Positions 37,998-63,239 of a stretch of DNA of 64,000 bases are shown piece after piece (position 1 is the stretch's first letter; every line of letters starts with the position of its first letter). The translations under genes and the position numbers were made by a program. A model generated the notes under the pieces. The model saw nothing but the letters and a program-made list of their open reading frames with translations. It was not told the origin of the DNA and ran no database searches. The stretch covers positions 3,722,001 to 3,786,000 of the forward strand of contig NC_019904.1 in assembly GCF_000325705.1 (NCBI RefSeq). The letters run 5' to 3'. The stretch comes from Echinicola vietnamensis DSM 17526 (GTDB taxonomy: Bacteria; Bacteroidota; Bacteroidia; Cytophagales; Cyclobacteriaceae).

Positions 37998-38004
37998 ATA
38001 CTAA

Positions 38005-38223: not shown

Positions 38224-38245
38224 CAACAACTTAAAACCAAAAATT

Positions 38246-38464
38246 ATGCATTTTTACGAAGGACATTTTGGAGGTATGCACCTAATATGGTGGATTATAT
38301 GGATTATTTTATTGGCTTGGATATTCTTTATCCCAGCAGATATCCCTTATCAAAAAACAAAGAAGGACAGCCCACTGGATATTCTTAAAAACCGCTTTGC
38401 AAAAGGCGAAATATCCAAGGAAGAATTTGAGGAATCAAAAAAGATATTAAAATCAGACAACTAA
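38246..38464 (+). CDS. SHOCT-domain small membrane protein
   Basis: 72 residues: one membrane segment (IWWIIWIILLAWIFFIP, about 14-31) and a C-terminal SHOCT motif (DILKNRFAKGEISKEEFEE). SHOCT peptides are common beside metal-efflux genes and their action is unknown. Confidence 0.8.
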   Translation: MHFYEGHFGGMHLIWWIIWIILLAWIFFIPADIPYQKTKKDSPLDILKNRFAKGEISKEEFEESKKILKSDN

Positions 38465-38481
38465 CTCAAAACTTTAAAATT

Positions 38482-38760
38482 ATGTATCGATTAAACGTAA
38501 AAAAACTCGGATTTGCTTTCGGTCTTACGGGGGCACTAATTTACTTAGGCTGTATGATAGTTATGTCAACAGCAGGTCGAGAAGCCACTATCGATTTTTT
38601 CAACAGCCTATTGCACGGTTTAGATACCACAAGCATTATCAGGATGGATGTGCCACTATGGGAAGCTGGTTTGGGAATAGTACAGATATTCATTTTAGGA
38701 TGGCTAATAGGTGCCTGTATTGCGGCTTTTTATAATGCGCAAATAAAAGTCAAAAAATAA
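38482..38760 (+). CDS. DUF5676-family membrane protein
   Basis: 92 residues with two membrane helices (about 9-30 and 63-86), matching the build of the DUF5676 family seen in Bacteroidota metal-resistance clusters. No catalytic or metal motif is apparent. Confidence 0.65.
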   Translation: MYRLNVKKLGFAFGLTGALIYLGCMIVMSTAGREATIDFFNSLLHGLDTTSIIRMDVPLWEAGLGIVQIFILGWLIGACIAAFYNAQIKVKK

Positions 38761-38778: not shown

Positions 38779-39489
38779 ATGCAATATGTCTGGTTCATAT
38801 GGTCTCTTATAATTCTTGCTCTTTGGGCAATAATCTATTTGTCAAAAAAGGGGTATAGAAAAGAAATGCTCAAAATGAGCCTTATTACTATGCCCTTTGG
38901 ATTGACCGAACCTTTGTTTGTACCTGAATATTGGTTTCCACCTTCCCTATTTAATTTAGCAGAAAGAACAGGCTTCGATATTGAGAGTCTTATATTCTCT
39001 TTTGCCATTGGCGGAATTGGGACGGTATTGTATAACCTAATATTCAAAAAAAGCTATATAGATATGCCTCATACCGAACGAGGCCACCAAAGACATAAGC
39101 TACATATTTATATACTTTTTGTTCCAGCCATTGTATTTGTCATATTTAGTCTTTTCACCACGCTTAACCACATCTATTGTGGCATCATTGCAATGTTTTT
39201 TGGTGGTTTGGCAACATTGTACTGTCGCCCGGATTTAAAAGGAAAAATATGGGTTGGTGGAATCTTGTTTACCATACTGTATTTCATTTATTTCGGAAGC
39301 ATCCTTCCGTTCTATCCCCAATATGTGGAGTTGTACTGGAATCTGGACAACCTGACCCATATTCTTGTTTTGAGAATCCCAATTGAAGAGTTACTGTTCG
39401 CTTTCACCTTTGGCATGTATTGGTCTGGATTATATGAACACTTGTATTGGAGAAAACTTATAAAATCGAAAGAAATGTCAACCAACTAA
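38779..39489 (+). CDS. Lycopene cyclase-domain membrane protein
   Basis: A 236-residue protein with about six or seven membrane helices that resembles the CrtYc/CrtYd-type lycopene cyclase domain; the motif RIPIEELLFAFTFGMYW near residues 203-219 corresponds to the PxEE element. In carotenoid producers the enzyme closes the end rings of lycopene. No other carotenoid gene is present here, so its action in this cluster is open; it may have been taken over for another membrane function. Confidence 0.7.
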   Translation: MQYVWFIWSLIILALWAIIYLSKKGYRKEMLKMSLITMPFGLTEPLFVPEYWFPPSLFNLAERTGFDIESLIFSFAIGGIGTVLYNLIFKKSYIDMPHTERGHQRHKLHIYILFVPAIVFVIFSLFTTLNHIYCGIIAMFFGGLATLYCRPDLKGKIWVGGILFTILYFIYFGSILPFYPQYVELYWNLDNLTHILVLRIPIEELLFAFTFGMYWSGLYEHLYWRKLIKSKEMSTN

Positions 39490-39501
39490 TACATTCAAAC
39501 T

Positions 39502-39963
39502 ATGAAAATACTATTGGCCATAGATGGTTCAGATTTCAGTAAAGTAGCCATTCACGAACTTATAAAAATGACCCTATCCTCAAATAGTGAAATTCATATT
39601 ATAAATGTTTATGAAGTTCCGAAAACAACCGGCCTGGGATTGCATACTATGGGCGGCAGGATAGGAAATTACATAGAAGAAATTAGAAGTAACGCTCAAA
39701 AATTGGGAAACAAAATCGTTTCAGAAGCTTTCGATAAAATCAAGGCCGAAAACAAGGCACTTACCATAACCACAAGTGTTGTTAGTGGCCTGCCCAAAAG
39801 TACTATTTATGAAAAAGCAGAAGATTGGGGTGCAGATTTAATCGTAGTAGGCTCTCAGGGTCACGGTGCACTTTCACGCTTAGTATTGGGCTCTGTATCC
39901 CAATATTTGACCACAAATGCCAAATGTTCAGTACTCATTGCAAGAGATAGAAATAAAAAATGA
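39502..39963 (+). CDS. Universal stress protein, single domain
   Basis: A 153-residue UspA-type protein. The ATP-binding pattern is complete: LLAIDGSDFS at the start and VVGSQGHGALSRLVLGS near residues 115-131. ATP-binding USPs appear in energy stress and low-oxygen responses. It overlaps the NADH dehydrogenase gene by 4 bases (ATGA), so the two are translated together. Confidence 0.9.
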   Translation: MKILLAIDGSDFSKVAIHELIKMTLSSNSEIHIINVYEVPKTTGLGLHTMGGRIGNYIEEIRSNAQKLGNKIVSEAFDKIKAENKALTITTSVVSGLPKSTIYEKAEDWGADLIVVGSQGHGALSRLVLGSVSQYLTTNAKCSVLIARDRNKK

Positions 39964-41315
39964 AAGAAAAGCAAACACATAGCATTACATTAGAATCCAC
40001 TTGTAAGATAACAGATGAAATCTGTCTTCCCGATACCAAATTACCTAGTGTGGTTATCGTTGGTGGAGGATTTGCAGGTTTGGCATTGGTTGAAAAACTG
40101 AAACACAAAGAAGTTCAAGTGGTTTTACTCGATAAAAATAACTTCCATCAATTTCAACCTTTATTATATCAAGTGGCAACGAGTGCGTTGGAACCTGATA
40201 GCATAGTATTTCCATTCAGAAAACAAATCAATGGCTATAAAAATGTTTTCTTTCGTTTGGCAGAAGTTGTGGAAATTCAACCTGATTCAAATACTATATT
40301 GACCAATAAGGGAAGTGTTTCTTATGACTATTTAGTGTTGGCTACTGGCACGACCACCAATTTCTTTGGGATGGATTCTGTAGCCGAAAATAGTTTGGGG
40401 ATGAAGGATATTCGCGATTCCCTCAACATCCGTCATATGATGTTGCAAAATTTGGAACAGGCAGCTATTACTTGTGATAATAAAGAACGCGACGCACTGA
40501 CAAATTTTGTAATAGTAGGTGGTGGTCCAGCAGGCGTAGAAATGGCAGGAGCTTTGGCAGAGTTTTGCAAATACATCCTTCCCAAAGATTACCCAGAGTA
40601 CCCTTCTTCCATTATGAATATTTATTTAATAGAAGCCATTGATGAGTTGTTAAGCACAATGTCTGATAAGGCATCATCGAAAACCCTCAAATATTTAGAG
40701 GATTTAAATGTAAAGGTATTATTAAATGAAGCTGTAAGCAATTATGATGGAAAGGAAGTCACTACCATAAGTGGTAAGACCATTTTGGCTAAAAACCTTA
40801 TCTGGACGGCTGGCGTAAAAGGACAATTCCCAAATGGTATTGATGAAAAACACATAGTCAGGGGCAACCGGATTAAAACCGATGCTAATTTAAAAGTAGA
40901 AGGCTACGAAAACATTTTTGCCATAGGCGATATAGCTGCGCTTATTTCTGAAGAAAGACCCAAAGGGCATCCACAGGTGGCGCAGGCAGCAATTCAACAA
41001 GGAAAATATCTGGGTAATTCTATATTAAACCTCATAAATAATAAACCCACACAACCTTTCGAATATAAAGACAAAGGCTCCTTGGCCACTGTAGGAAAAC
41101 GCAAGGCAGTTGCCGATTTGGGCAAATTTAAATTTGCAGGCTATTTCGCCTGGTTGCTGTGGTCCGTTGTTCACTTGATGTCCATAAGTGGATTTAGAAA
41201 TAGATTGATGGTTGGTTTTAATTGGGCGGTTAGCTATTTCACTTATGAAAAGAGCAACCGCTTGATTATTAGAAATTTTAAGCCAAAATCATTAATCGAT
41301 AATACAGAAGAATAA
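39960..41315 (+). CDS. Type II NADH dehydrogenase (NDH-2-like)
   Basis: A 451-residue FAD enzyme that passes electrons from NADH to quinone without pumping protons. FAD-binding VVIVGGGFAGLALVEKL (about 32-48), NAD-binding FVIVGGGPAGVEMAGAL (about 181-197), and FAIGDIAAL. The C-terminal amphipathic region (WSVVHLMSISGFRNRLMVG) anchors it to the membrane. A 30-residue N-terminal lead containing two Cys is unusual. In the cluster it could re-oxidise NADH from the glycolytic enzymes. Confidence 0.88.
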   Translation: MKEKQTHSITLESTCKITDEICLPDTKLPSVVIVGGGFAGLALVEKLKHKEVQVVLLDKNNFHQFQPLLYQVATSALEPDSIVFPFRKQINGYKNVFFRLAEVVEIQPDSNTILTNKGSVSYDYLVLATGTTTNFFGMDSVAENSLGMKDIRDSLNIRHMMLQNLEQAAITCDNKERDALTNFVIVGGGPAGVEMAGALAEFCKYILPKDYPEYPSSIMNIYLIEAIDELLSTMSDKASSKTLKYLEDLNVKVLLNEAVSNYDGKEVTTISGKTILAKNLIWTAGVKGQFPNGIDEKHIVRGNRIKTDANLKVEGYENIFAIGDIAALISEERPKGHPQVAQAAIQQGKYLGNSILNLINNKPTQPFEYKDKGSLATVGKRKAVADLGKFKFAGYFAWLLWSVVHLMSISGFRNRLMVGFNWAVSYFTYEKSNRLIIRNFKPKSLIDNTEE

Positions 41316-41335
41316 CTAATTAAAACAAAATTTAT

Positions 41336-42349
41336 ATGAAAGAAATAGGAGTTATAGGATACGGAGTCATAGGAAAAAGAGTGGCAGATGCCATCAAATT
41401 ACAAGATGATATGAAGCTTTCGGGCGTTTGCGATATAATCAGCGATTGGCGCATTCAAAATGCCGTAAGAAAGGAGTATGATATTTATGCAGCTACCGAA
41501 GAAGCAGCCAATGATATGGACTCAAAAGGAATTTCAGTAAAAGGAAGCTTACAGGAACTTTTAAAGAAATCAGATCTTGTTGTGGACTGTACACCCAAAA
41601 AAATTGCCGCTCAGAATGTCGTTATCTACAAGGAGCAAAACATCAAATTTATTCTACACGGTGGCGAAAAACACGAAACCACAGGGCATTCCTTTAGTGC
41701 AGAAAATAATTACAAATCGGCTCTAAACTTGAATGCGACAAGAGTAGTTTCTTGTAATACTACGTCTATTTTAAGAACCTTGACCGCTTTAAAAAGAGCC
41801 GATTTATTGGATTATGCCAGAGGTACACTTTTAAGAAGAGCTACAGACCCTTGGGAAAGTCATTTAGGTGGTATTATGAATACAATGGTTCCCGAAAAAG
41901 ATATCCCAAGCCATCAAGGTCCAGATGCTAAAAGTGTTGACCCAGAACTGGATGTCATCACCGCAGCGGTAAAAGTACCCGAAACATTGAGCCATATGCA
42001 CTACTGGAATGTGAAATTGAAAAAGCAGGCGACAAAGGAAGAAGTACTAAATGCATTTAAAACATCAAGCCGTATTAAATTAATTCGATATGACCAAGGC
42101 TTGGTCTCTAACAACACCATTAAGGAAATGTTTCTGGATATGGGAAGACCTTGGGGAGATATGTATGAAGTGGCTCTTTGGGAAGATATGCTGAAAGTAC
42201 AGGGAGACGAACTTTTTTATGCTTATGTAGTCGATAACCAAGCTATTGTTATACCAGAAACCATAGATGCTATTAGAGCACTTACCGGAATTGAAACAAA
42301 TGGTACAAAATCCATAGTCAAAACAAATGAAAGTTTAGGAATCTATTAA
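41336..42349 (+). CDS. Type II (archaeal-type) glyceraldehyde-3-phosphate dehydrogenase
   Basis: A 337-residue enzyme of the archaeal GAPDH group, not the usual bacterial GapA. Nucleotide-binding [12 protein letters not shown] (8-19) and the catalytic Cys140 in [10 protein letters not shown] (bacterial GapA has SCTTN). HGGEKHE and [12 protein letters not shown] also match archaeal enzymes. It oxidises glyceraldehyde-3-phosphate with NAD(P), reversibly. The gene is followed 11 bases on by the aldolase. In bacteria this type is rare and points to lateral transfer. Confidence 0.9.
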
Positions 42350-42360
42350 ATACTATCAAA

Positions 42361-43422
42361 ATGAAAACAGACAAGAATATAGTAGAACTTTTAGGAGAAA
42401 AAGCATCTTTCTATTTGGAACACATTTGTGAAAAAATAACTAAAGATGAGTTGCAGACCCCAAGCAAGAATAGTATAGATAAGGTGTTTGGAAATAGCAA
42501 CAGAAATCCACAGGTACTTCGTAGCCTTTCCCAGTTATACAATCACGGAAATTTGGCAGGAACTGGTTATTTAAGTATCCTCCCTGTCGACCAAGGCATT
42601 GAGCATAGCGCAGCATATTCATTCTACAAAAACCCAGATTATTTTGACCCTGAGAACATTATAAAACTCGCCCTTGAGGCAGGTTGTAATGGTGTGGCGT
42701 CCACGTTTGGGGTTTTGGGTTTGAACGCCCGAAAATATGCCCATAAAATCCCTTTTATCGTTAAGATTAACCATAATGAGTTACTCACCTATCCTAATAA
42801 ATATGACCAAACGCTCTTTGGTAAGGTAAAAACCGCTTGGGATATGGGAGCAATTGCCGTAGGAGCTACGATTTATTTTGGTTCAGCGGAAAGTAACCGA
42901 CAACTCAAAGAAATAGCTGAGGCTTTTGAAGAAGCTCACAATCTGGGTATGGCTACCATTTTATGGTGCTATACACGAAATGAAGCTTTTAAAACCGAAA
43001 AAGAAGATTACCACGCAGCTGCCGATGTTACTGGGCAGGCCAATCATTTGGGCGTAACTATTCAAGCGGATATCATTAAACAAAAATTACCAACCAATAA
43101 TTTCGGGTTTAAAGAAATAGGATTTGGAAAATATGATGATGAAATGTATAAAACGTTGACGACAGACCATCCCATAGACCTTTGTCGATTACAAGTTGCC
43201 AATTGTTATATGGGAAAAATAGGACTTATAAATTCAGGAGGCGGTTCCAAAGGAGAATCTGATTTGGTTGAGGCGATAACAACTGCCGTCATCAATAAAA
43301 GGGCTGGTGGCTCTGGGCTGATAATGGGAAGAAAAGCCTTTCAAAAACCATTCACTGAAGGGATTGAGCTCTTAAGATTTGTACAAGACGTCTATTTGGA
43401 CCAAAAAATAAGTATTGCTTAA
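42361..43422 (+). CDS. fbaB: Class I fructose-bisphosphate aldolase, DhnA/FbaB type
   Basis: 353 residues, almost the length of E. coli FbaB (350). It splits fructose-1,6-bisphosphate to two triose phosphates by a Schiff base; the likely lysine is K240 in [20 protein letters not shown] and a phosphate-binding [10 protein letters not shown] loop are further marks. It lies between GAPDH and the symporter, with phosphofructokinase next, making three consecutive glycolytic steps. Confidence 0.92.
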
Positions 43423-43433
43423 TTAAAAAAAGA

Positions 43434-44782
43434 ATGTTCGATACGGAAATAAAATCATTAAAATCACTTAACCACTACCTCCTTAAACTGGTAGAAAGCC
43501 GTCTATGGCTTAAAGTAATCATTGCTTTGTTGTTAGGTGTTGGATTTGGTCTGTTATTGAGTCCACAAAATGGATGGATTTCTAAAGAAACAGCAGATAT
43601 CGCGGGGAATTGGCTGGCATTGCCCGGTGTACTATTTCTGAAACTGGTTCAAATGATTATGATTCCGTTGATTGTGGCTTCCATCATCACAGGAATCGCA
43701 AGTAATGATAAGGACAGTTTAAAAAAATTAGGTGGTGGTGTTTTACTATATTTTTTGGGCACAACAATAGTTTCGGTTAGCATTGGTACGATACTATCCC
43801 AAATTTTTAGACCGGGTCGTTTTCTTCATCAACAAGCACTAAAAGAGCATAATGAAATTACGGCAGTTTCAACTGATGAACCCGAGCTTTCCTTCGGAGT
43901 TGAAACGATTCCTGATGCCATCTCAAACCTGCTTCCTGAAAATCCATTGGCATCTATGGTAAGTGGTGAAATGTTAAGTATTGTGATTTTCACAATCATT
44001 ATTGGTGTAGCTGTGCTATCTCTTGAAAATGATTTACTGCGCCCAGTAAAGCTGCTTCTAAGTGCCATTCAGGAAGTCTGTATGACGGTGGTAAAATGGT
44101 CTATGTTATTAGTCCCTATTGCTGTTTTCGGACTTATGGCACAGCTTACCTCTAGTGTTGGTTTGAGTTCTCTATCTGGCCTCACCTACTATGTGGGTGT
44201 CGTCTTGCTCGGTCTGTTATTCTTAGTAATTTTCTATTTAGGGCTAATTGTGCTTCTTGGAAAAGCAAACCCTATGCATTTCTTAAAAAAAATAAGGGAC
44301 GTTCAATTATTGGCTTTTTCAACCACAAGCTCTGCCGCTGTGATGCCACTTTCTCTTCAAACAGCCGAAGAAAAACTAAAGGTGGACAAGACCATTAGCA
44401 ATTTTATCATTCCCATTGGCGCAACCGTCAATATGGATGGAACAGCACTCTATCAAACGATAACAACCCTTTTTATAGCCAAGCCTATGGACTGGAAATG
44501 AGTTTGCTCAATATTATTGTGGTCATTGTAACCATCGTTGCTGCTTCAATCGGCACACCTGCCATTCCCGGAGGTGGTGTGGTGATACTCGCTTCTGTTT
44601 TGGGAAGTGTCGGTATTCCAGCCGAAGGCATCATCATTATCATTGGTGTAGAAAGATTGTTGGGAATGTTCAGGACTGCTGTAAACGTAATGGGTGACCT
44701 TACAGCTTGTATGGTTTTTAATAGGTTGTATGATATAAAAATACTGAAATTCTTAAAAAAGAAGCTTTATAACTATGGATAG
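43434..44782 (+). pseudogene. Dicarboxylate/amino-acid:cation symporter broken by one-base frameshift
   Basis: A DAACS (GltP-like) transporter split into two frames: 43434-44501 (355 residues, ending FIAKPMDWK) and 44498-44782 (94 residues). Adding one C in ATAGCCAAGCC at 44478-44481 restores FIAQAYGLEMSLLN and an uninterrupted 449-residue protein with the family motifs MDGTALYQ, ASIGTPAIPGGG and RTAVNVMGD. A CCC to CC loss is thus the simplest cause, either a real mutation or a sequencing error. The second part overlaps the phosphofructokinase start by 8 bases. Confidence 0.88.
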
Positions 44783-45746
44783 TACTATAAAACATATAGG
44801 TGTATTTACCTCTGGAGGTGATAGTCCAGGGATGAATGCAGCCTTGTACGCCATTACAAAAACGGCTGAAGTAAATGGTATAAACGTAAGCGGCTTTCGA
44901 AAAGGATATGAAGGATTGATAGACGGTGACTTGGTTCAATTAAAATCACACGAATTACAAAAACTGACCCAAAAGGGTGGCACTATCCTTAAGACAGCCC
45001 GAAGCAAACGTTTTCTCGAACTGGAAGGTCGAAAAAAAGCCTTGCAAACTCTAAATGTAAACAAAATAGACGCTTTAATTGCCATTGGTGGTGATGGTAC
45101 ATTTAAAGGATTACTTGCTTTTTCAGAGATATGCGATATCCCATTCATAGGGATTCCCGGAACTATTGATAACGATATTTCGGGTACGGATTACACCCTT
45201 GGTTTTGATTCCGCAGTTAACACAGCCATTGAAAATATTGATAAAATAAGGGATACTGCCGAATCCCATAACCGTGTGTTCATTGTTGAAGTAATGGGAA
45301 GGGATTCGGGTTACATCGGTATTCATTCTGGATTGATGGTTGGTGCGGACGCCATATTAATTCCGGAGAGCGGTACGGACTTTATTAACCTTTTGGGTAA
45401 GGTGAAAAATTACGATAGCGAGGATGCTTTTCTAATCGTAGTTTCTGAAGGTGACGAAATTGGTGCCGATCTTGTTTCTTCAAAAATAAAGGAAGTCAAT
45501 CCCAATGTCGATTTACGCATAACAAAGCTTGGCCACATACAGCGAGGTGGAAATCCTTCTGCTTTGGATAGAATGTTGGGCATAAGGCTTGGGGTGGAAG
45601 CCGTAAAATCGCTTTTACAAAGTAAAAAGAATGTAATGATCGGGATTTTAAACAATCAATTGCACTTAACCCCTTTTAATGAGGTGGTCAAGCAACATCA
45701 GGTCAATAAAGAATTGCACGAACTTTTAGAACTATTTGGAACATAA
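44775..45746 (+). CDS. pfkA: ATP-dependent 6-phosphofructokinase
   Basis: A 323-residue PfkA. Motifs: TSGGDSPGMNA (12-22), GGDGT (105-109), PGTIDND (128-134), MGRDSGYIG and GHIQRGG. Gly108 and the Gly in PGTIDND are the residues of ATP-type enzymes; pyrophosphate-type enzymes have Asp and Lys at these places. It phosphorylates fructose-6-phosphate, the substrate-producing step for the aldolase upstream. Its ATG lies inside the end of the symporter gene. Confidence 0.95.
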   Translation: MDSTIKHIGVFTSGGDSPGMNAALYAITKTAEVNGINVSGFRKGYEGLIDGDLVQLKSHELQKLTQKGGTILKTARSKRFLELEGRKKALQTLNVNKIDALIAIGGDGTFKGLLAFSEICDIPFIGIPGTIDNDISGTDYTLGFDSAVNTAIENIDKIRDTAESHNRVFIVEVMGRDSGYIGIHSGLMVGADAILIPESGTDFINLLGKVKNYDSEDAFLIVVSEGDEIGADLVSSKIKEVNPNVDLRITKLGHIQRGGNPSALDRMLGIRLGVEAVKSLLQSKKNVMIGILNNQLHLTPFNEVVKQHQVNKELHELLELFGT

Positions 45747-45749
45747 ATT

Positions 45750-46745
45750 ATGAAAACAACAATATACAGCACACATAAATTCGATAAGCCTTCCATTGAA
45801 AACGCTAATAAAGGAAAACATCAATTGAATTTTCTGGAATTTAGGCTAACAAAGGAAACCGCCTTATTGGCAGAAGGTTCAAAGGCCATAGCACTTTTCT
45901 CAAATGACGATGCCTCTTCGGAAGTTTTGGATATTTTACACAAACTAGGCATAAAATTTATCGCATTACGTTCGGCAGGTTTCAATCACGTCGATTTAGA
46001 AAAAGCAGCTGAATTGAATATAAAAGTGGCACGTGTCCCAGCCTATTCACCTTATGCCATTGCAGAACATACAATGGCTTTGATACTTGCATTAAACCGA
46101 AGACTGATTAAAGCCCACAATAGAGTGCGCGAACAAAACTTTTCATTAAACGGTCTCACTGGTTTTGACCTAAATGGGAAAACCGTTGGCGTGATTGGAA
46201 CAGGAAAAATAGGGTCTGTACTCGTAAAAATACTTCACGGATTCGGCTGCAATATTCTTGCCCAGGATATAGAAGAAAGCAAAGACCTAATTGATAAATA
46301 TGGCCTAATCTATTCAGATTGTGCGACGCTCTGTAAGCACGCAGATATAATAAGCCTGCACGTGCCATTAAAAGCTTCAACAAAACATTTAATAAATAAA
46401 GAGCATATAGCACTAATGAAATCTGGAGTAATGCTCATCAATACAAGTCGTGGTGGGTTGGTGGACACCAAGGCAGTTATCGAAGGATTGAAAACTAAAA
46501 AAATAGGGTATTTAGGACTGGATGTTTATGAGGAAGAAGAAGGATTGTTCTTTGAAGACCATTCCGATGACATTTTGCAAGACGATGTGATTGCACGCTT
46601 AATGACTTTCAACAATGTACTAATTACAAGCCATCAAGCTTTTTTAACCAAAACCGCATTGACCAATATTGCAGAAACAACCATATATAATCTGGATTGT
46701 TTTGAAAAACAAAAACCTTCTGGAAATGAAATTAGCATTAATTAA
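45750..46745 (+). CDS. D-lactate dehydrogenase-type 2-hydroxyacid dehydrogenase
   Basis: A 331-residue D-isomer-specific 2-hydroxyacid dehydrogenase. NAD-binding GTGKIGSVLVKILHGFG (about 150-166), catalytic Arg in NTSRGGLVDT, Glu in DVYEEEEG, and His in TSHQAFLT; the last form and overall length fit LdhA. It would reduce pyruvate to D-lactate and regenerate NAD for GAPDH. It begins 3 bases after pfkA. Confidence 0.88.
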   Translation: MKTTIYSTHKFDKPSIENANKGKHQLNFLEFRLTKETALLAEGSKAIALFSNDDASSEVLDILHKLGIKFIALRSAGFNHVDLEKAAELNIKVARVPAYSPYAIAEHTMALILALNRRLIKAHNRVREQNFSLNGLTGFDLNGKTVGVIGTGKIGSVLVKILHGFGCNILAQDIEESKDLIDKYGLIYSDCATLCKHADIISLHVPLKASTKHLINKEHIALMKSGVMLINTSRGGLVDTKAVIEGLKTKKIGYLGLDVYEEEEGLFFEDHSDDILQDDVIARLMTFNNVLITSHQAFLTKTALTNIAETTIYNLDCFEKQKPSGNEISIN

Positions 46746-46763
46746 TAGTTAAAAACAAATATT

Positions 46764-47594
46764 ATGAAAAACATACTCGTACCAACAGACTTTTCAAAAA
46801 ATTGCAATAAAGCAGAAGAACTCGGAATTGAAATGGCAAAGCTTTACAATTCCGAAATCCATTTTTTCCATTTGATGAAAACCTCTGTTGATTGGGTAAA
46901 ACTGGATAAACAAAAAGAAAAAAGGTATCCCGAAACTTTAAAGGAAATTGGAGTCGTTAAATCAAAATTGCGGGAACTGGAAAAAAAGGCTGAGCACGAA
47001 GGTCTTAAATGTCGAACTTTTCTTCAATTTGATTCGGGACAGAAAGATATTTTAGAACATTCTGGTCATTTCCATCACGATTTTATAGTTACGGGAAGTA
47101 GTGGCACCCGAGGCGGTATACGTGAGTTAATGGGAAGCAACGTAGAAAAAATTGTTAGGAAAGCTGATGTACCGGTTGTTGTAGTCAAGGATGAAGAAGT
47201 ATCCTTTCCTTTTAAGGATATCGTTTTTGTTTCAGATTTTCTTCAAGATGTAAGCGATGCATTTAAGCAGGTTATTTCGATTGCTGAAAAATGCGGTGCA
47301 CATATCCATTTATTGAGGGTCAATACTCAGACCGATTTTAACAGTATAGAACAAGGGTTGGATCCCATCAAGGAGTTCCTGAAAAAATTCCCCGATTTGG
47401 ATAACTTCTCAATGAATGTATATAACGAACAAGACGTAGAAACAGGGATAAACAATTTTTTACGATATAAAAATGCCGATTTAATCGCAATGTGTACTCA
47501 CGGACGTACAGGCTTTTTAAGCTTATTCTCTAAAAGCATCGCAGAGGGTGTAACCAATCACTCCGAATTACCAGTAATGACTATTAAAATGTAA
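46764..47594 (+). CDS. Universal stress protein, two domains
   Basis: 276 residues with two Usp units. The first has VTGSSGTRGGIRELMGS (about 111-127), a full nucleotide-binding loop; the second ends MCTHGRTGFLSLFSKSIAEG, a weaker match. The opening is MKNILVPTDFSKNC. It lies 2 bases before the ATP-cone gene, another predicted adenine-nucleotide sensor. Confidence 0.9.
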   Translation: MKNILVPTDFSKNCNKAEELGIEMAKLYNSEIHFFHLMKTSVDWVKLDKQKEKRYPETLKEIGVVKSKLRELEKKAEHEGLKCRTFLQFDSGQKDILEHSGHFHHDFIVTGSSGTRGGIRELMGSNVEKIVRKADVPVVVVKDEEVSFPFKDIVFVSDFLQDVSDAFKQVISIAEKCGAHIHLLRVNTQTDFNSIEQGLDPIKEFLKKFPDLDNFSMNVYNEQDVETGINNFLRYKNADLIAMCTHGRTGFLSLFSKSIAEGVTNHSELPVMTIKM

Positions 47595-47596
47595 CA

Positions 47597-48442
47597 ATGA
47601 ATAAATCAGTCTTAATAAAAAAATACTCTGGAGACGTCGTTGAATTTGATGTGGACAAACTCATCAATTCCCTGAAACGGTCTCAGGCAAGCGATACTGT
47701 GGTTCAGCAAATTGTTGAACAAGTTGAAGGGCAACTTTATGATGGAATTACCACAAAAAAAATCTATCAGATGGCATTCAAAATACTTAAAAGTAAATCA
47801 AGGGTAAGTGCCTCAAAATACAAGCTCAAAAAGGCGATTATGGAATTAGGGCCATCAGGATTTCCTTTTGAAAAATTTGTCGGTAAGATTTTAGAGATGG
47901 AAGGCTTTAGTACAAACGTGGGAGTTATTGTTCAAGGTAATTGTGTACAGCACGAAGTTGATGTAATCGCCGAAAAAGAAAACAAACACTATATGATTGA
48001 ATGCAAATACCATAGCGACCAAGGTAGGTTTTGTAATGTAAAAATCCCATTATATATCCATTCACGGTTTTTGGACGTAGAAAAGCAATGGGAACACCAA
48101 AAAGGTCACGAGGCTAAACTTCATAAAGGAGGTGTGTACACCAATACGCGTTTCACAACCGATGCCATTCAGTACGGGAAATGTGTTGGAATGCTTATGA
48201 GCAGTTGGGATTATCCAAGAGGAAATGGTCTCAAGGACAGAATAGATAACTCTGGGCTACATCCCTTAACCGCTTTAACAACACTTACCAAAGCTGAAAA
48301 AACAAAATTATTGGATGAAGGCATCGTGCTCTGTAAAGAGCTTCACGAAAGTCCGAAGCTCTTGGAAAAAATAGGAATTGATAAAAAAAGACATAAAAAG
48401 ATTCTTGAAGATTCAGAAAAATTATGTTCAGTACATCAATAA
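47597..48442 (+). CDS. ATP-cone domain fused to PD-(D/E)XK nuclease-like domain
   Basis: 281 residues. Residues about 1-88 are an ATP-cone (VLIKKYSGDVVEFDVDKLIN, ASKYKLKKAIMELGPSG), the regulatory nucleotide-binding domain of ribonucleotide reductases and NrdR. Residues about 89-200 resemble Mrr-type restriction endonucleases, with D122 (HEVDVI) and E135/K137 (IECKY). The C-terminal part is helical. The pairing suggests nuclease activity gated by ATP/dATP or AMP level. No methyltransferase is near, so it is not an ordinary restriction enzyme. Confidence 0.8.
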   Translation: MNKSVLIKKYSGDVVEFDVDKLINSLKRSQASDTVVQQIVEQVEGQLYDGITTKKIYQMAFKILKSKSRVSASKYKLKKAIMELGPSGFPFEKFVGKILEMEGFSTNVGVIVQGNCVQHEVDVIAEKENKHYMIECKYHSDQGRFCNVKIPLYIHSRFLDVEKQWEHQKGHEAKLHKGGVYTNTRFTTDAIQYGKCVGMLMSSWDYPRGNGLKDRIDNSGLHPLTALTTLTKAEKTKLLDEGIVLCKELHESPKLLEKIGIDKKRHKKILEDSEKLCSVHQ

Positions 48443-48482
48443 AAAACAATGCAACAATCAGTAATTCTAAATAAAAAATCAA

Positions 48483-48737
48483 ATGAAAAAAGAAGATTCA
48501 CAACAACAGAACCAATTAGATTTTGAGCCGTTTTACGAAGCTCTCGAAGACGAGCCAAAATTACTTGAAGAAGCCTTAGAAATACTATTGGATATGGTAG
48601 AGTTAGAACCCAACTCAATTAAGAAGATAGCACTTTATATCAAAGAGGATTCACGAAATCTATATAATGAGATAACAAAATTATACAAATCGAGCCAAAA
48701 CCAAAGCAATACACCGTCCTGCTGTGGTGGACACTAA
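48483..48737 (+). CDS. Small acidic protein ending CCGGH
   Basis: 84 residues, strongly acidic and helical (EPFYEALEDEPKLLEEALEI) with a flexible tail ending SCCGGH, which could bind a metal. No family is recognised. It lies between the ATP-cone nuclease and the beta-CASP gene in the same transcription direction with short gaps. Confidence 0.65.
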   Translation: MKKEDSQQQNQLDFEPFYEALEDEPKLLEEALEILLDMVELEPNSIKKIALYIKEDSRNLYNEITKLYKSSQNQSNTPSCCGGH

Positions 48738-48749
48738 ATAAATGCTATA

Positions 48750-50129
48750 ATGATGACAAACAACAAAATAAACATCCATTTTTTAGGAGCGGCAGGCACA
48801 GTAACCGGTTCAAAATATCTGGTTGATACAGGAGATAGAAAGATACTGATAGACTGCGGTCTTTTTCAGGGATTGAAGGAATTGCGCCTTAAAAACTGGG
48901 AGTATCCACCCGTTAATGTTGCTGATATTGACGCTGTTTTGCTCACCCACGGCCATATGGACCATACAGGGTATTTGCCGAGATTGGTAAAGCAAGGTTT
49001 CAAAGGGCCCATTTACGGCACCAATCCCACCTTGGACATCGCAAAAATCATATTGAATGATAGTGCCAAAATACAAGAACAGGAAGCCGAACGTGCCAAT
49101 AAAGAGGGCTATTCCAAACACAGTCCTGCGGAACCACTTTACGATTTAAATGATGTAGAAAAAACAATCCCTTACTTCAAAGGAGTACCACCCTCGCAAT
49201 GGCTACCCATTCTCAAAGATGTGAAAGCGAGGTTTCAATACAACGGACACATCCTTGGTGCCACATACATTGAGTTAGATATACGCGGAAAACGTTTCGT
49301 ATTTTCTGGCGATATAGGCAGAACAAACGATTTATTACTGTTTCCGCCATTAAAGCCAAAAGAAGCAGATGTATTATTTATTGAATCCACCTACGGAGGA
49401 AGATTTCATCCTGATGAAGTAGAAGCACTTCCACAAATTGAAAAATTGGTCAATGACACCATCAACAGAGGTGGCAGCTTGTTTGTCCCAAGTTTTTCGG
49501 TAGAACGTGCCCAATTGATGATGCTTATTTTTTGGAGGTTACTCAAGGAAAACAAAATCCCCAAAGTACAAATGATAATGGACAGCCCGATGGGTGCCAA
49601 CGTATTGGAACTGTTTCATAGAACTCGGGATTGGCACAGATTGGAAGACAATGAATGTGACGAAATGTGCTCATACTTTACAGTCATTAGCAGCTATCGT
49701 GAAACAATGGAATTAAGAACAGATAACAAACCCAAAATCGTGATTGCAGGAAGCGGAATGCTCACAGGCGGAAGAATGCTTAACTATCTTGAAACACAGG
49801 CACAAAATCCAAATAACACCTTACTTTTTGTAGGCTATCAAGCTGAAGGCACTCGTGGCAGAAAATTATTGGAAGGTGAAAAAGAACTAAAAGTATATGG
49901 AAAATGGGTGCCGTTTAAAATGCAAGTAGCAGAAATTGAAGGGCTGTCGGCACACGCAGACCACGCAGAGCTTATGGACTGGATGGACAGTATAAAAAAC
50001 AAACCCAAACGCATTTTCATTATACACGGTGAAAAAGAGAGTGCAGAAGCATTGCAAAAAGGCATCAAGGAAACTTATGGGTGGGATGCAGAAATTCCGC
50101 AATTATACACCATCGAAGAAATAGAATAA
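48750..50129 (+). CDS. Metallo-beta-lactamase/beta-CASP ribonuclease-type protein
   Basis: A 459-residue RNA-processing exo/endonuclease of the Ysh1/CPSF73-like group. The zinc motif is H67-G-H69-M-D71-H72; later marks are FSGDIGR, SGMLTGGR in the beta-CASP region, and SAHAD and IIHGE near the end. Similar proteins act on RNA 3' ends. Bacterial copies are found beside the AMP phosphorylase and PRPP synthase genes in other stress clusters as far as I recall. Here the AMP phosphorylase gene follows by 21 bases. Confidence 0.9.
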   Translation: MMTNNKINIHFLGAAGTVTGSKYLVDTGDRKILIDCGLFQGLKELRLKNWEYPPVNVADIDAVLLTHGHMDHTGYLPRLVKQGFKGPIYGTNPTLDIAKIILNDSAKIQEQEAERANKEGYSKHSPAEPLYDLNDVEKTIPYFKGVPPSQWLPILKDVKARFQYNGHILGATYIELDIRGKRFVFSGDIGRTNDLLLFPPLKPKEADVLFIESTYGGRFHPDEVEALPQIEKLVNDTINRGGSLFVPSFSVERAQLMMLIFWRLLKENKIPKVQMIMDSPMGANVLELFHRTRDWHRLEDNECDEMCSYFTVISSYRETMELRTDNKPKIVIAGSGMLTGGRMLNYLETQAQNPNNTLLFVGYQAEGTRGRKLLEGEKELKVYGKWVPFKMQVAEIEGLSAHADHAELMDWMDSIKNKPKRIFIIHGEKESAEALQKGIKETYGWDAEIPQLYTIEEIE

Positions 50130-50150
50130 ATCACAACAATCAAAAAAAAT

Positions 50151-51653
50151 ATGGACACACACTCAAACATATTAAAATACAAACACCTCGGCATCTATAC
50201 CCAAAACGAGAATGTAGTGTATATGCGCGAAGATTGCCACGTTTGTATTTCAGAAGGGTTTGAGGCACTTACCCGAATAAGAATATCCAATGCAAATACA
50301 TCAATCGTGGCAAGTCTTAATGTTTTGAATTCTGATATCTTGTTGCCCAATGAAATCGGACTATCAGATGCTGCTGCGAAAAAACTCAATGTGTCCCAAA
50401 ACGATACATTGTATGTTTCCCATTTAGAACCTATAGAATCGTTAAGCCACGTCAGGGCAAAAATCTATAACAAAAAACTGGATTATAAGGCCTATAACAA
50501 CATCATAACCGATATCGTTGAAGGCGATTATTCCAACATCCATCTTTCGGCATTTATTACTGCCTGTGCTGGCGACCGAATGGATATTGATGAAATAAGT
50601 GACCTTACTAAAGCAATGATTGCTTCCGGAAAGCAACTGAACTGGAACAAGGATATCGTGGTCGACAAACATTGTATTGGTGGTTTACCAGGCAATAGAA
50701 CAACCCCATTGGTAGTAGCCATTGTTGCCGCGTATGGGCTTACTATGCCAAAAACATCCTCACGGGCAATCACTTCACCAGCAGGCACAGCAGATACAAT
50801 GGAAGTACTGACCAATGTTACGCTCTCTTCCGAGGAAATAAAGACCGTAGTAGAAAAAGAAGGCGGATGTTTTGTTTGGGGCGGTACAGCGCAGTTAAGT
50901 CCTGCCGATGATGTGCTCATTAAAATTGAAAAAGCCTTGGATATTGATAGCGAAGGTCAGCTCATTGCTTCAGTACTCTCTAAAAAGGCAGCAGCTGGTT
51001 CTACTCACGTGGTCATTGATATTCCCGTGGGAGAAACCGCCAAGGTTCGCAGTACCGAAATGGCAGAAAAACTAAAAAATCATATGGAAACTGTTGGAAC
51101 TGCTGTTGGGTTGAATGTAAAAGTTGTAGTTACGGATGGCACTCAGCCGGTTGGAAGGGGTATCGGTCCAACATTAGAAGCCATAGATATATTAAAAGTT
51201 TTGAAAAATGAGGAAGATGCACCTAAAGACTTAACAGAAAGAGCGTTGCTTTTAGCTACTGAACTATTAGAACTTTCTGGAAAAGTAGAAAAAGGGAAGG
51301 GACTGGAAACCGCACATAAAATTCTCAAATCTGGAAAAGCATATGAAAAATTCATAGCCATTTGTAAGGCGCAAGGTCAATTTTCAAAACCAGTTTTAGC
51401 ACCTTATAAAATTGAAATTAAAGCTGAAAAGTCAGGCGTTTTGCAACGAATTGATAACCGAAAAATCGCAAAACTTGCCAAGCTTTCTGGAGCACCACAA
51501 TCTAAATCGGCAGGGATTCTTTTGAATGTCCATTTAAATGAAAAAATTGAAATAGACCAATTGTTATATACCATATATGCTGAATCCAAAGGCGAACTCA
51601 ACTATGCTCTGGAATATAAAAACAACCATAATGACATCATAACTATAATTTAA
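50151..51653 (+). CDS. deoA: AMP phosphorylase (archaeal DeoA type)
   Basis: A 500-residue enzyme. The N-terminal domain of about 80 residues preceding the thymidine-phosphorylase core is the mark of archaeal AMP phosphorylases (about 503 residues) and is absent from short bacterial DeoA/Pdp. Core motifs: VDKHCIGGLPGNRTTP and SSRAITSPAGTADTMEVL. The known archaeal reaction is AMP + phosphate to adenine + ribose-1,5-bisphosphate. Ribose-1,5-bisphosphate isomerase and RubisCO, which follow in archaea, are not in this window; a PRPP synthase gene follows 6 bases on instead. Confidence 0.9.
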   Translation: MDTHSNILKYKHLGIYTQNENVVYMREDCHVCISEGFEALTRIRISNANTSIVASLNVLNSDILLPNEIGLSDAAAKKLNVSQNDTLYVSHLEPIESLSHVRAKIYNKKLDYKAYNNIITDIVEGDYSNIHLSAFITACAGDRMDIDEISDLTKAMIASGKQLNWNKDIVVDKHCIGGLPGNRTTPLVVAIVAAYGLTMPKTSSRAITSPAGTADTMEVLTNVTLSSEEIKTVVEKEGGCFVWGGTAQLSPADDVLIKIEKALDIDSEGQLIASVLSKKAAAGSTHVVIDIPVGETAKVRSTEMAEKLKNHMETVGTAVGLNVKVVVTDGTQPVGRGIGPTLEAIDILKVLKNEEDAPKDLTERALLLATELLELSGKVEKGKGLETAHKILKSGKAYEKFIAICKAQGQFSKPVLAPYKIEIKAEKSGVLQRIDNRKIAKLAKLSGAPQSKSAGILLNVHLNEKIEIDQLLYTIYAESKGELNYALEYKNNHNDIITII

Positions 51654-51659
51654 AAAACT

Positions 51660-52553
51660 ATGAAAACAATATTATTCAGTCTTCCCGGAAACGAAAAACT
51701 CACAGAACTAATGGCTACAAAAATGGATGCTGAAGTGGGCAAAGCCACTTTGCGCAACTTCCCTGATGGAGAATCCTATACACGTATCTTATCTGATGTT
51801 AAAGACAAATGTGTGGTACTGGTATGCACCTTGCACGAACCGGACGAGAAACTGTTGCCTCTATATTTTTTAAGCCACACAGCCAAATCATTGGGAGCAA
51901 TGTGTACCTGTTTGGTAGCACCCTATTTGGCGTATATGCGGCAGGACAAAGTATTTAATGAAGGTGAAGGAGTGACTTCTGGTTTCTTCGGAAAATTGAT
52001 TTCTGGTTTCGCCGATAGCATTACCACAGTTGACCCGCACTTACATAGAATTAGCTCGTTGGGTGAAGTGTATCAAATTCCCAACAAAGTGATTCACGCT
52101 GCCGATGCCATTTCAGATTGGATCAAGGAAAACATTGAAAACCCGGTACTTATCGGACCTGATTCGGAAAGTGAACAATGGGTTTCAGAAGTCGCCAAAA
52201 ATGCTGGAGCACCATTTATAGTATTACAAAAGATGCGCCACGGTGACCGTGATGTAGAGGTCTCTGTTCCCGATGTGGATATATATAAAGATGCTACACC
52301 CATTTTGGTAGATGATATTATTTCCACAGCCCGAACAATGATTGAAACCGTACAACATTTGAAAAAAGCAGGAATGAAACCTCCTATCTGCGTAGGCATT
52401 CACGCCGTTTTTTCAGGAAATTCCTATAAAGATTTATTGGGTTCCGGGGTGGAAAAAATAGTGACTTGTAATACCATCCCGCATCCTTCAAATGGAATAG
52501 ATTTAAGTGATATTATGGCAAAAGAGGTGAAAAAATTAATGCACCAGATATGA
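51660..52553 (+). CDS. prs: Ribose-phosphate pyrophosphokinase (PRPP synthase)
   Basis: 297 residues, slightly shorter than standard bacterial Prs. Motifs: NFPDGES (about 38-44), DPHLHR near residue 123, and the PRPP loop VDDIISTARTM. It makes PRPP from ribose-5-phosphate and ATP. The divergence from housekeeping Prs and its place next to AMP phosphorylase suggest a specialised role in recycling the ribose moiety or rebuilding AMP from adenine. The stop overlaps the next ATG by 4 bases. Confidence 0.9.
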   Translation: MKTILFSLPGNEKLTELMATKMDAEVGKATLRNFPDGESYTRILSDVKDKCVVLVCTLHEPDEKLLPLYFLSHTAKSLGAMCTCLVAPYLAYMRQDKVFNEGEGVTSGFFGKLISGFADSITTVDPHLHRISSLGEVYQIPNKVIHAADAISDWIKENIENPVLIGPDSESEQWVSEVAKNAGAPFIVLQKMRHGDRDVEVSVPDVDIYKDATPILVDDIISTARTMIETVQHLKKAGMKPPICVGIHAVFSGNSYKDLLGSGVEKIVTCNTIPHPSNGIDLSDIMAKEVKKLMHQI

Positions 52554-53194: not shown

Positions 53195-53201
53195 AACGAA
53201 A

Positions 53202-53513: not shown

Positions 53514-55616
53514 ATGGAAAATCACGAACACCACAATCACGAAGAAATGGACCATTCTAAAATGGACCATTCGAAGATGAAACACAAAAAAGAAGACCAT
53601 TCTAAAATGAACCACAAAGGTGGGGACCATTCGGGTCACAATCCGGGTCACGGTCAAATGGGTCACGACCATCATAAAATGATGATTGCGGACTTTAGAA
53701 AACGGTTTTGGGTAACACTCGTGCTTACCATCCCCATATTGTTCTTCTCACCAATGATACAAGAATTTTTTGGTTATGAATTTTTACTTCCAGGAAATCC
53801 ATACATCCTTTTTGCACTTTCCACTATTGTCTATTTTTATGGTGGTTGGCCATTTTTAAAAGGGTTTTGGTCTGAAGTCAAAAAAGGTGCACCAGGAATG
53901 ATGACCTTGATTTCTATGGCAATTTCCGTAGCTTATTTTTATAGTACAGCTACTGTATTTGGCTTAAGAGGTGAAGACTTTTTCTGGGAACTATCAACAC
54001 TTATAGCCATAATGTTGCTTGGTCATTGGATAGAAATGAAAAGTGTTTTGGGTGCGTCAAAAGCGCTGCAGTTGTTGGTGAGTATGATGCCTGCGGAAGC
54101 CCACAGGGTGAAGGGAGATACTATTGAAGACATCCCTCTTGAAGATTTACTAAAGGATGATGTGATTTTGGTTAAACCAGGTGAAAAAGTTCCTGCTGAT
54201 GGGATTATAGTAGACGGTTCAAGTTACCTGAACGAATCTATGCTTACAGGCGAATCCAAACCTGTAAAAAAAGATGAAAACGATAAGGTTATTGGTGGTT
54301 CGGTAAATGGTAACAGTACCTTAAAAGTAAAGGTTGAGCATACTGGAAAAGATAGCTTTCTCAACAAGGTCATCAAAATGGTCGAAGAAGCGCAAAAAAC
54401 CAAATCCAAGATGCAAAATCTTTCAGACAGGGCTGCAAAATGGTTAACCTATATCGCTTTGGCTATTGGTTTTGGAACATTAGCGGTATGGCTGATTTTA
54501 GGCTTTCCATTTGTCTATGCTTTAGAAAGAATGGTTACCGTTATGGTCATTGCTTGTCCACACGCATTGGGTCTTGCCATTCCCCTTGTGGTTGCGATTT
54601 CTACGGCAGTATCTGCTCAAAATGGATTGCTTATCCGAAATAGAACTGCTTTTGAAGAGTCAAGAAAAATTTCAGCTTTGCTTTTTGATAAAACAGGAAC
54701 ACTAACCAAAGGTGATTTTGGTGTCACTCGAATCGAATCTGTTAAAGAAGCTTATTCAACAGAGGAAATTTTAAGACTTTCAAGTGCATTGGAACAAAGC
54801 TCAGAACACCCCATTGCAGTTGGTATTATTAAAAGAGTTAAAGAAGATAACATTACTATTCCAAAACCTGAAAACTTTAATGCAATTACAGGAAAAGGTG
54901 TAGAGGCAAATGTAGATGGTAAACAAGTGAAGGTGGTCAGCCCTGGTTATTTAAGGGATGAAAAAATCACTATTCCTGAAGATGCTTATAGTGACGCTGC
55001 TGAAACTGTTGTATTTGTATTAATAGATGGCCAGCTAGCAGGATACATTGCTCTTGCTGATGAAATAAGACCTGAATCTGCGGAAGCTATAAAAATATTC
55101 AAAAAAAACAATATTAAAGTCTTGATGGCAACTGGCGATAATGAAAAAACCGCTAAGGCTGTGAGTGAAAAACTTGGATTGGATGGTTACTACGCCGAAG
55201 TATTGCCACATCAAAAAGTTGAAATTGTAGAAGAGTTACAGAACAAAGGCGAATTTGTAGCGATGACGGGTGATGGTGTAAATGATGCGCCCGCACTTGC
55301 CAAAGCTGATGTGGGAATTGCAGTTGGTTCAGGTACGGACGTTGCCGCCGAAACAGCAGATATCATTCTGGTCAACAGTAACCCACAGGATATTGCCAAC
55401 TTAATTCTCTTTGGAAAAGCCACCTACAATAAAATGATTCAGAATTTGATTTGGGCTACAGGATATAATGTAGTGGCTATTCCTTTAGCAGCCGGTGTAT
55501 TATATTCTTCAGGCTTTGTTTTAGGACCAGCTGTAGGAGCGGTATTTATGAGTTTAAGTACGATTATAGTGGCCATTAATGCGCAACTATTAAAGCGAAA
55601 AATCGGTAAAAAATAA
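53514..55616 (+). CDS. Copper/silver P1B-type ATPase (CPH type, CopB-like)
   Basis: A 700-residue metal-exporting ATPase. The cytosolic N-terminus (1-55) is His/Met-rich (MDHSKMDHSKMKH) instead of a CxxC domain. TGES at 245-248, the metal motif CPH at 348-350, phosphorylated DKTGT at 392-396, HP in SEHPIAVG, and GDGVNDAPALA follow. CPH marks the P1B-3 group, linked to Cu(II)/Ag(I)/Cu(I) export. Cargo may be handed over by the CopZ-like protein at 38005. The MFS gene starts at the base after its stop codon. Confidence 0.93.
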   Translation: MENHEHHNHEEMDHSKMDHSKMKHKKEDHSKMNHKGGDHSGHNPGHGQMGHDHHKMMIADFRKRFWVTLVLTIPILFFSPMIQEFFGYEFLLPGNPYILFALSTIVYFYGGWPFLKGFWSEVKKGAPGMMTLISMAISVAYFYSTATVFGLRGEDFFWELSTLIAIMLLGHWIEMKSVLGASKALQLLVSMMPAEAHRVKGDTIEDIPLEDLLKDDVILVKPGEKVPADGIIVDGSSYLNESMLTGESKPVKKDENDKVIGGSVNGNSTLKVKVEHTGKDSFLNKVIKMVEEAQKTKSKMQNLSDRAAKWLTYIALAIGFGTLAVWLILGFPFVYALERMVTVMVIACPHALGLAIPLVVAISTAVSAQNGLLIRNRTAFEESRKISALLFDKTGTLTKGDFGVTRIESVKEAYSTEEILRLSSALEQSSEHPIAVGIIKRVKEDNITIPKPENFNAITGKGVEANVDGKQVKVVSPGYLRDEKITIPEDAYSDAAETVVFVLIDGQLAGYIALADEIRPESAEAIKIFKKNNIKVLMATGDNEKTAKAVSEKLGLDGYYAEVLPHQKVEIVEELQNKGEFVAMTGDGVNDAPALAKADVGIAVGSGTDVAAETADIILVNSNPQDIANLILFGKATYNKMIQNLIWATGYNVVAIPLAAGVLYSSGFVLGPAVGAVFMSLSTIIVAINAQLLKRKIGKK

Positions 55617-58025: not shown

Positions 58026-58033
58026 AAGTCATT

Positions 58034-58594: not shown

Positions 58595-58614
58595 ATTTCG
58601 CTGTCAAAGGGTTA

Positions 58615-59511: not shown

Positions 59512-59535
59512 TGTTTTACTTATTTGAGTTTAACA

Positions 59536-61141: not shown

Positions 61142-61154
61142 ACTATTTCTGTTG

Positions 61155-61583: not shown

Positions 61584-61595
61584 TACATTGTTTTT

Positions 61596-62219: not shown

Positions 62220-62243
62220 TTTTTACGGATTAATCGTTTTACA

Positions 62244-63236: not shown

Positions 63237-63239
63237 GGC

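Follow-up and report, generated by a model that had tools for sequence, protein, structure and literature searches.

The usual account of metal resistance in bacteria is export, binding or oxidation of the metal. In target-replacement resistance, of which extra dihydrofolate reductase genes are an example, a second, unrelated or divergent version of a poisoned enzyme rides on a mobile element. Mobile copper-resistance islands combine a copper-type P-type ATPase (Cu-ATPase), a CopZ-like heavy-metal-associated (HMA) protein, DUF5676 and Met/His-rich proteins. Another kind of locus is lxa of Burkholderia cenocepacia, which is upregulated by low oxygen and required for anoxic persistence, and whose tabulated proteins, part of 50 genes, include six universal stress proteins (Usps), a 51-kDa metallo-beta-lactamase protein, a 6-phosphofructokinase (PFK), a phosphate acetyl/butyryl transferase and an alcohol dehydrogenase (PMC6127331). 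Here we describe a 19.6-kb block of genes (37224-56834) in a 64,000-nucleotide window of the Echinicola vietnamensis DSM 17526 genome (NC_019904.1, positions 3,722,001 to 3,786,000), on an element that its genes identify as an integrative conjugative element of the CTnDOT type. The block resembles the copper islands in the genes just listed and differs from them in that roughly a dozen genes for central metabolism, Usps and nucleotide enzymes share the same one-strand run. We report its gene content, its conserved order, its spread, a statistical link between type II glyceraldehyde-3-phosphate dehydrogenase (GAPDH-II) and copper pumps, and the architecture of its regulator. We put at about even the chance that the block is a copper-induced backup of metal-poisoned steps plus fermentation, joined with copper export in one transferable unit. 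No description of a module of this kind was found in the open-licence literature.

All genes of the block are on one strand and no intergenic gap exceeds 40 bp (-8 to 40 bp between 37703 and 56834), which agrees with an earlier note that described the central genes as unidirectional and near-gapless. Copper-type genes are followed by genes for a Usp, a type II NADH dehydrogenase (NDH-2), GAPDH-II, a class I aldolase, PFK, a D-2-hydroxyacid dehydrogenase and another Usp, then by an ATP-cone protein, a beta-CASP nuclease, an AMP/thymidine phosphorylase-like enzyme, a phosphoribosyl pyrophosphate (PRPP) synthase (Prs) and the Cu-ATPase (Table 1). The GAPDH-II protein was searched against genome contigs, giving 154 relatives, of which the best 80 loci were used (86-99% GAPDH-II identity, a few from the same or sister genomes). 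Gene order was counted with tblastn using the window's genes and best matches of at least 50% identity. In all 80 loci the matched block genes (median 16.5 per locus, range 7 to 21) share a single strand and follow the gene order of the window. The block is therefore a conserved, transferable unit, as the earlier note had proposed, and its genes are not scattered in relatives. Generic stress cargo with no common function would fit the variable gene content and many insertions of the loci, but we hold it highly improbable: the order kept in all 80 loci speaks against chance accretion of the block genes, and plasmids from several phyla again combine GAPDH-II with metal pumps.

All loci carry flavobacterial names except L011 (Cyclobacteriaceae) and L049 (Saprospiraceae), and the host genome belongs to another order than the Flavobacteriaceae that carry the block. 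Zunongwangia atlantica and Galbibacter orientalis are examples of cultured flavobacteria that have it. A GAPDH-II tree of 86 rows (75 different, none archaeal) nested the window among Flavobacteriaceae, and at least three separate changes are needed for its non-flavobacterial Bacteroidota rows (the window, L011 and L049). On this phylogeny the block has spread between orders and families. The earlier note's 'archaeal-type', if taken to mean origin, is not supported; judged by the position of GAPDH among flavobacterial sequences the term is a family name only, and direct archaeal transfer is unsupported by the tree. DNA identity between the window and Flavobacteriaceae reaches about 95% over 5.7 kb; with L011, a 13.6-kb stretch is 95.7% identical and a 2.8-kb stretch upstream of the block is 99.6% identical. 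Sequence identity to relatives varies gene by gene, with the nearest relatives being Sinomicrobium for GAPDH, L011 (a Cyclobacterium metagenome bin) for the aldolase, and Christiangramia for Prs and the Cu-ATPase, a pattern that recombination among elements would produce. Within the host's genus GAPDH-II was found in 0 of 10 sampled relatives, and in a sample of the phylum in 18 of 395 genomes, the window's own among them.

The block is headed by an AraC-type regulator, present upstream in 62 of the 80 loci, whose residues 1-69 were modelled as a copper-chaperone-like fold with an MxCxxC motif. Relatives of this regulator adjoin copper-type genes in six of seven loci away from the flavobacterial block, one of the seven (L179) itself holding relatives of block genes (DUF5676, Usp2). 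The modelled architecture predicts a copper-responsive sensor. A conserved run (AACGAAAGTTATGCAGA-like) is found directly 3' of the regulator stop codon (36390-36415), at the same place in most loci printed, and is possibly a binding site of the regulator.

The copper association was also examined by a paired comparison, in the same genomes, of the surroundings of GAPDH-II and of type I GAPDH (at most 20 kb each), using 16 of the 17 Bacteroidota genomes other than the host that encode GAPDH-II (G352, with the gene in two fragments, was omitted; five of 32 stretches were shorter than 20 kb). A Cu-ATPase was matched in 10/16 stretches around GAPDH-II and in 1/16 around type I GAPDH (Fisher p 0.002, a value that is too small because eight of the 16 genomes share one family and four another). 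DUF5676 (7 versus 0) and the ATP-cone (8 versus 0) were likewise concentrated near GAPDH-II, and acetate kinase was found only near type I GAPDH (0 versus 3). Together with the regulator, this bears out the copper association that the earlier note had drawn.

GAPDH-II was identified on 37 of 72,556 plasmids, three of them with no more than 34% identity to the window's protein. Regions from 18 of the 37, picked to avoid near-copies and leaving out those three, span Bacteroidota, Pseudomonadota, Actinomycetota and Deinococcota. Twelve of the 18, from three phyla that do not include Bacteroidota, have an annotated P-type ATPase for heavy metals or copper near GAPDH-II, a count that stands without a clean plasmid control (plasmid-wide Cu-ATPase matches number at least 5000 records). 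Companions vary and include phosphoketolase, glycogen phosphorylase, acetate kinase, the arginine deiminase pathway, pyruvate:ferredoxin oxidoreductase (PFOR) and phosphoglucomutase, as well as beta-CASP, phosphorylase, Prs, Usp and DUF5676. On two plasmids of Roseovarius and Sulfitobacter (L155, L156), GAPDH-II and a heavy-metal P-type ATPase flank an arginine deiminase pathway that looks complete. At least 19 of the 37 GAPDH-II plasmids are also among 60 listed of 155 phosphorylase plasmids, where 0.08 would be expected if the two were independent, an expectation that ignores plasmid size and kinship.

The earlier note had called the block's functions housekeeping ones, and the host does encode them itself: it has two type I GAPDHs, two class II aldolases, two other PFKs and one other full-length Prs, so the block duplicates host steps. 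The block aldolase has no significant match in the host, GAPDH-II matches in weak pieces only, and the two Prs proteins are 26% identical; the host's sole other DeoC-family match is a frame of 222 residues. A tblastn search (E 1e-10) that took the type I GAPDHs and the class II aldolases of the host as queries matched none of 114 islands (80 flavobacterial, 18 plasmid and 16 Bacteroidota stretches), although for class II aldolases a search with two host proteins could miss divergent ones. As a positive control, type I GAPDH was recovered in 16 of 16 control stretches. Class I aldolases of two families (PF01791 and PF00274) are present in 83 of the 114 islands (79 flavobacterial, two plasmid, two Bacteroidota).

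Several of these steps are reported metal targets in other bacteria. GapA of Staphylococcus aureus is bound and inhibited by copper, as Cu(I) (PMC6350627). Staphylococcal Prs loses activity 7-fold at 2 uM Cu(I) and PRPP falls; raising prs expression lowers copper sensitivity and lowering it raises sensitivity (PMC10249872). In Streptococcus pyogenes, PFK and GAPDH are inhibited by zinc (PMC4450579), and streptococcal zinc resistance has been linked to arginine deiminase (PMC10903455). Both copper-inhibited staphylococcal enzymes are among those duplicated in the block; they are Gram-positive host enzymes for which the parts of those two papers used here describe no mobile backup (PMC6350627, PMC10249872). 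We favor the copper-backup reading mainly because published metal targets overlap with the genes of the block and its cousins. Under it, the regulator would detect Cu(I) in the cytosol through its chaperone-like domain and activate the operon, and the Cu-ATPase and small metal-binding proteins would lower copper. Second versions would replace the metal-blocked steps, with type II substituting for type I GAPDH, a metal-free class I for a class II aldolase, and PFK and Prs supplied likewise. NADH would be disposed of by NDH-2 and the 2-hydroxyacid dehydrogenase, and, as PRPP and ATP run low, beta-CASP and the phosphorylase may turn RNA and nucleotides back into ribose phosphates. Protection could come either from copper-tolerant enzymes or from extra dosage alone.

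Several observations weigh against this reading. In the 16-genome comparison the other block enzymes are rare or evenly distributed (aldolase 2 versus 0, beta-CASP 2 versus 0, phosphorylase 0 versus 0, Prs 0 versus 0, PFK 2 versus 2), and the complete set of metabolic genes did not turn up outside Flavobacteriaceae, so that there GAPDH-II and copper genes alone travel together. Six of the 16 chromosomal GAPDH-II stretches have no Cu-ATPase match: L130-L133, which have GAPDH-II of ~58% identity and include two short stretches, and L118 and L119, which are true modules where any pump would lie beyond the fetched stretch. No heavy-metal P-type ATPase is annotated in six of the 18 plasmid stretches (L083, L152, L153, L154, L158 and L160). 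Among these, an unspecified HAD-IC P-type ATPase is present in L158, a multicopper oxidase in L160 and an HMA protein in L152; the plasmid of L083 encodes a Cu-ATPase elsewhere. The metal targets known from publications are those of Staphylococcus and Streptococcus and not of Bacteroidota. GAPDH-II retains its catalytic Cys, and Prs has six Cys in both the block and host versions, so copper tolerance of the block enzymes cannot be deduced from sequence. Of the earlier note's argument on copper, damage to standard GAPDH stands as published for staphylococcal GapA (PMC6350627), and tolerance of the block's own enzymes is unsupported by Cys content. Two further points, the occurrence of Usp, beta-CASP and PFK in lxa as well (PMC6127331) and of anoxia-type genes (arginine deiminase, PFOR) in plasmid islands, count for a different explanation.

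That explanation is a persistence module for low oxygen or energy starvation, similar to lxa, in which ATP is made by substrate-level phosphorylation and NADH is oxidized through 2-oxoacid reduction. Such a module could travel with copper genes since each is an advantage in sediments and biofilms, or since Cu(I) is more toxic without oxygen. By gene names the likeness to lxa is strong in kind (both have several Usps, PFK, fermentation enzymes and a metallo-beta-lactamase protein about as large as beta-CASP), and phosphoketolase, acetate kinase and glycogen phosphorylase in the GAPDH-II plasmid regions fit as well, as do alpha-amylase-, glycogen-phosphorylase- and acetate-kinase-like open reading frames (ORFs) seen by eye in some flavobacterial loci. 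GAPDH, aldolase, Prs and a copper pump, however, are absent from the tabulated lxa proteins, and lxa responds to low oxygen (PMC6127331), while the block is set apart by a copper-type regulator with in-run copper genes. The heading regulator is copper-chaperone-like rather than a known oxygen sensor and its relatives adjoin copper-type genes; the 19.6-kb run itself includes the Cu-ATPase and the small metal proteins; and an FNR-type palindrome was not evident by eye in the upstream regions printed (no formal scan was made). We therefore regard the persistence module as rather unlikely. Copper and anoxia may also act together, a possible combined reading that arises because Cu(I) dominates without oxygen.

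The nucleotide genes suggest a third function, a ribose-fuel and adenylate-recycling unit in which beta-CASP, the phosphorylase and Prs feed ribose phosphates into glycolysis and the copper genes are secondary. Beta-CASP and phosphorylase genes are no more than 200 bp apart in 32 of the 39 plasmids common to both listed sets (60 listed of 155 phosphorylase plasmids and 60 listed of 249 beta-CASP plasmids), and the pair also occurs on plasmids without a listed GAPDH-II match, such as that of Criblamydia. Block-like pairs were seen on NZ_LK031773 (Criblamydia, of the Chlamydiae; beta-CASP 65% and phosphorylase 61% identical to those of the block) and on the Legionella plasmids NZ_CP082853 and NZ_LN614828. 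The archaeal nucleoside monophosphate pathway consists of AMP phosphorylase, ribose-1,5-bisphosphate (R15P) isomerase and RuBisCO III. The block shares with it the long-form AMP/thymidine phosphorylase but differs in that neither R15P isomerase nor RuBisCO was found among the block proteins by Pfam and NCBIfam family scans (two small ORFs have no Pfam match), and in the score of the phosphorylase itself, which passes TIGR02645 and PRK04350 but not the AMP phosphorylase equivalog TIGR03327 (487.9 versus 535 bits). GAPDH-II and copper genes also occur without the beta-CASP/phosphorylase/Prs trio in the stretches read (e.g., L088 and L150), and a recycling unit is in our view improbable. An extra P-loop kinase-like ORF of ~180 residues was noticed by eye inside the block in 10 of the 80 loci, including L054; a role as a partner for ribose-1,5-bisphosphate is guesswork.

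Most enzyme names in the earlier note were upheld by family models. NDH-2, the class I (FbaB-type) aldolase, Prs and both Usps were recovered under those names, and GAPDH-II has Cys140 within VSCNTT, aligned with SCNTT of 2czc. K240 of the aldolase aligns with a lysine of 1ojx that we take to be the Schiff-base lysine. Three names needed qualification. PFK belongs to its family (the PRK03202 cut-off is reached), but the ATP-type assignment narrowly missed its equivalog TIGR02482 (352 versus 371 bits). The proposed D-lactate dehydrogenase (D-LDH) is a 2-hydroxyacid dehydrogenase of the D-LDH/VanH-like kind, and since none of the listed D-LDH models reaches its cut-off (PRK12480 169 versus 579 bits, PRK08605 200 versus 356 bits), D-lactate as its substrate is uncertain. 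AMP phosphorylase holds at the level of the two broader models and not as a firm name; the nearest solved structures, 4ga4-4ga6, were deposited as putative thymidine phosphorylase and presumably represent the Thermococcus AMP phosphorylase. Within its range the note had left unnamed a frameshifted symporter, the ATP-cone/Mrr protein and the beta-CASP nuclease. Type I GAPDHs have the motif CTTNC in 18 of 18 sequences found by pattern (in the 16 control stretches, plus the two genes of the host), whereas in type II the second Cys is missing, VSCNTT being followed by S, A or G in 133 of 133 matches (fetched loci, overlapping stretches included). Fewer thiols as a general sign of copper tolerance was rejected, as it holds for GAPDH and fails for Prs. 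ArsJ-type arsenate resistance consists of a GAPDH and a major facilitator superfamily (MFS) permease; it was set aside on family labels, the MFS protein here being distantly Tet-like and the GAPDH type II.

Table 1. Features of the block and of the surrounding element (positions in the window)
Feature	Position	Strand	Basis
Two large serine recombinases adjoining tRNA-Pro (27174-27249); probable left end of the element	27160..30469	-	Pfam Resolvase/Recombinase
AraC-type regulator, N-terminal copper-chaperone-like domain (MVCNRC)	35808..36389	+	outside the range of the earlier note
WG-repeat protein	36459..37058	+	PF14903
Met-rich lipoprotein-like protein, likely metal-binding by composition	37224..37703	+	sequence; no Pfam match
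His-rich membrane protein, HMA (CopZ-like) protein, SHOCT-type protein, DUF5676	37728..38760	+	ORFs; PF18926
Lycopene cyclase-domain membrane protein	38779..39489	+	PF18916
Universal stress protein	39502..39963	+	PF00582
NDH-2-type NADH dehydrogenase	39960..41315	+	PF07992 (Pyr_redox_2), PF22366 (NDH2_C), over cut-off
Type II GAPDH, Cys140	41336..42349	+	NF003251 447 bits, TIGR01546 330 bits, both over cut-off
Class I (Schiff-base type) fructose-bisphosphate aldolase, K240	42361..43422	+	NF006707 640 bits, over cut-off; alignment to 1ojx
Na+:dicarboxylate symporter, frameshifted into two ORFs	43434..44782	+	PF00375 in both ORFs
6-Phosphofructokinase	44775..45746	+	PF00365, PRK03202
D-2-hydroxyacid dehydrogenase, D-LDH/VanH-like	45750..46745	+	PF02826; no NCBIfam cut-off reached
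Tandem universal stress protein	46764..47594	+	PF00582, two stretches
ATP-cone + Mrr-like protein	47597..48442	+	PF03477, PF04471
Beta-CASP metallo-beta-lactamase-fold nuclease	48750..50129	+	PF10996, PF07521
AMP/thymidine phosphorylase-like enzyme, long archaeal form	50151..51653	+	over cut-off for TIGR02645 and PRK04350, below for TIGR03327; nearest PDB 4ga5
PRPP synthase (Prs), PRK07199 subfamily	51660..52553	+	PRK07199, over cut-off
Copper-type P-type ATPase, His/Met-rich N-terminus	53514..55616	+	TIGR01511 615 bits
MFS transporter, distantly like Tet-type drug pumps	55617..56834	+	PF07690; below cut-off of every listed model
Conjugation genes TraQ, TraO, DUF4138 (TraN-like), TraM, TraJ, DUF4141	57576..63872	-	Pfam

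Some of these labels carry limits: the HMA protein is CopZ-like yet below the model cut-off, and the SHOCT label was taken from an annotated neighbor in a relative. The symporter is one ORF in 45 of 47 relatives and is interrupted in L011, a close relative of this element, and in L045; because of these two, its frameshift is likely inherited decay rather than a sequencing slip. Ahead of the gene for the Met-rich protein is an inverted repeat, CCATTCCC / GGGAATGG (37141-37180), that looks like a terminator or leader hairpin. By eye, its arms are spelled differently at about the same place in other loci and still pair.

Carriage on a conjugative element, also claimed in the earlier note, is evident from a CTnDOT set of Tra genes at 57.6-63.9 kb (TraJ, TraM, DUF4138, TraO and TraQ by Pfam). 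The host genome is a single contig of 5.6 Mb. In two congeners tRNA-Ser and tRNA-Pro are likewise adjacent but the DNA past tRNA-Pro differs, and for this reason the left boundary of the element is probably at tRNA-Pro; in one congener the DNA after tRNA-Pro matches window positions 13.6-20.1 kb, reversed. Comparison with the two congeners over 120 kb past the window did not reveal the right end. GC content is low between the recombinases and the tra genes (0.34-0.41 versus about 0.40-0.49 outside). An Rfam scan of positions 26000-58000 matched only the two tRNAs; a tRNA-Ala called by ARAGORN within the tra genes (61985-62072, minus strand), outside the scanned stretch, is probably false. Just left of the AraC regulator are two IS1595-type transposase genes (33247-34155 and 34703-35611) that appear to be identical, judged by equal length and equal Pfam scores.

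If the block is a copper backup, it may be a form of target replacement in which the poison is a metal and several steps of a pathway are replaced. The specific proposal is that an element under a copper-chaperone-like AraC sensor supplies GAPDH-II, class I aldolase, Prs and PFK, as divergent or unrelated substitutes for host enzymes poisoned by Cu(I), together with a pump, and that in Bacteroidota, Deinococcota and Actinomycetota such sets were assembled repeatedly, the class I aldolase differing between them. We offer it tentatively and think it somewhat more likely to be wrong than right. The block otherwise falls under known mobile metal-resistance and stress cargo, and would be categorically new only if target replacement is true. 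In that case it would explain why housekeeping enzymes are found on plasmids and conjugative elements, and bacterial copper targets could be read from what mobile elements replace, so that the targets relevant in nature would become testable.

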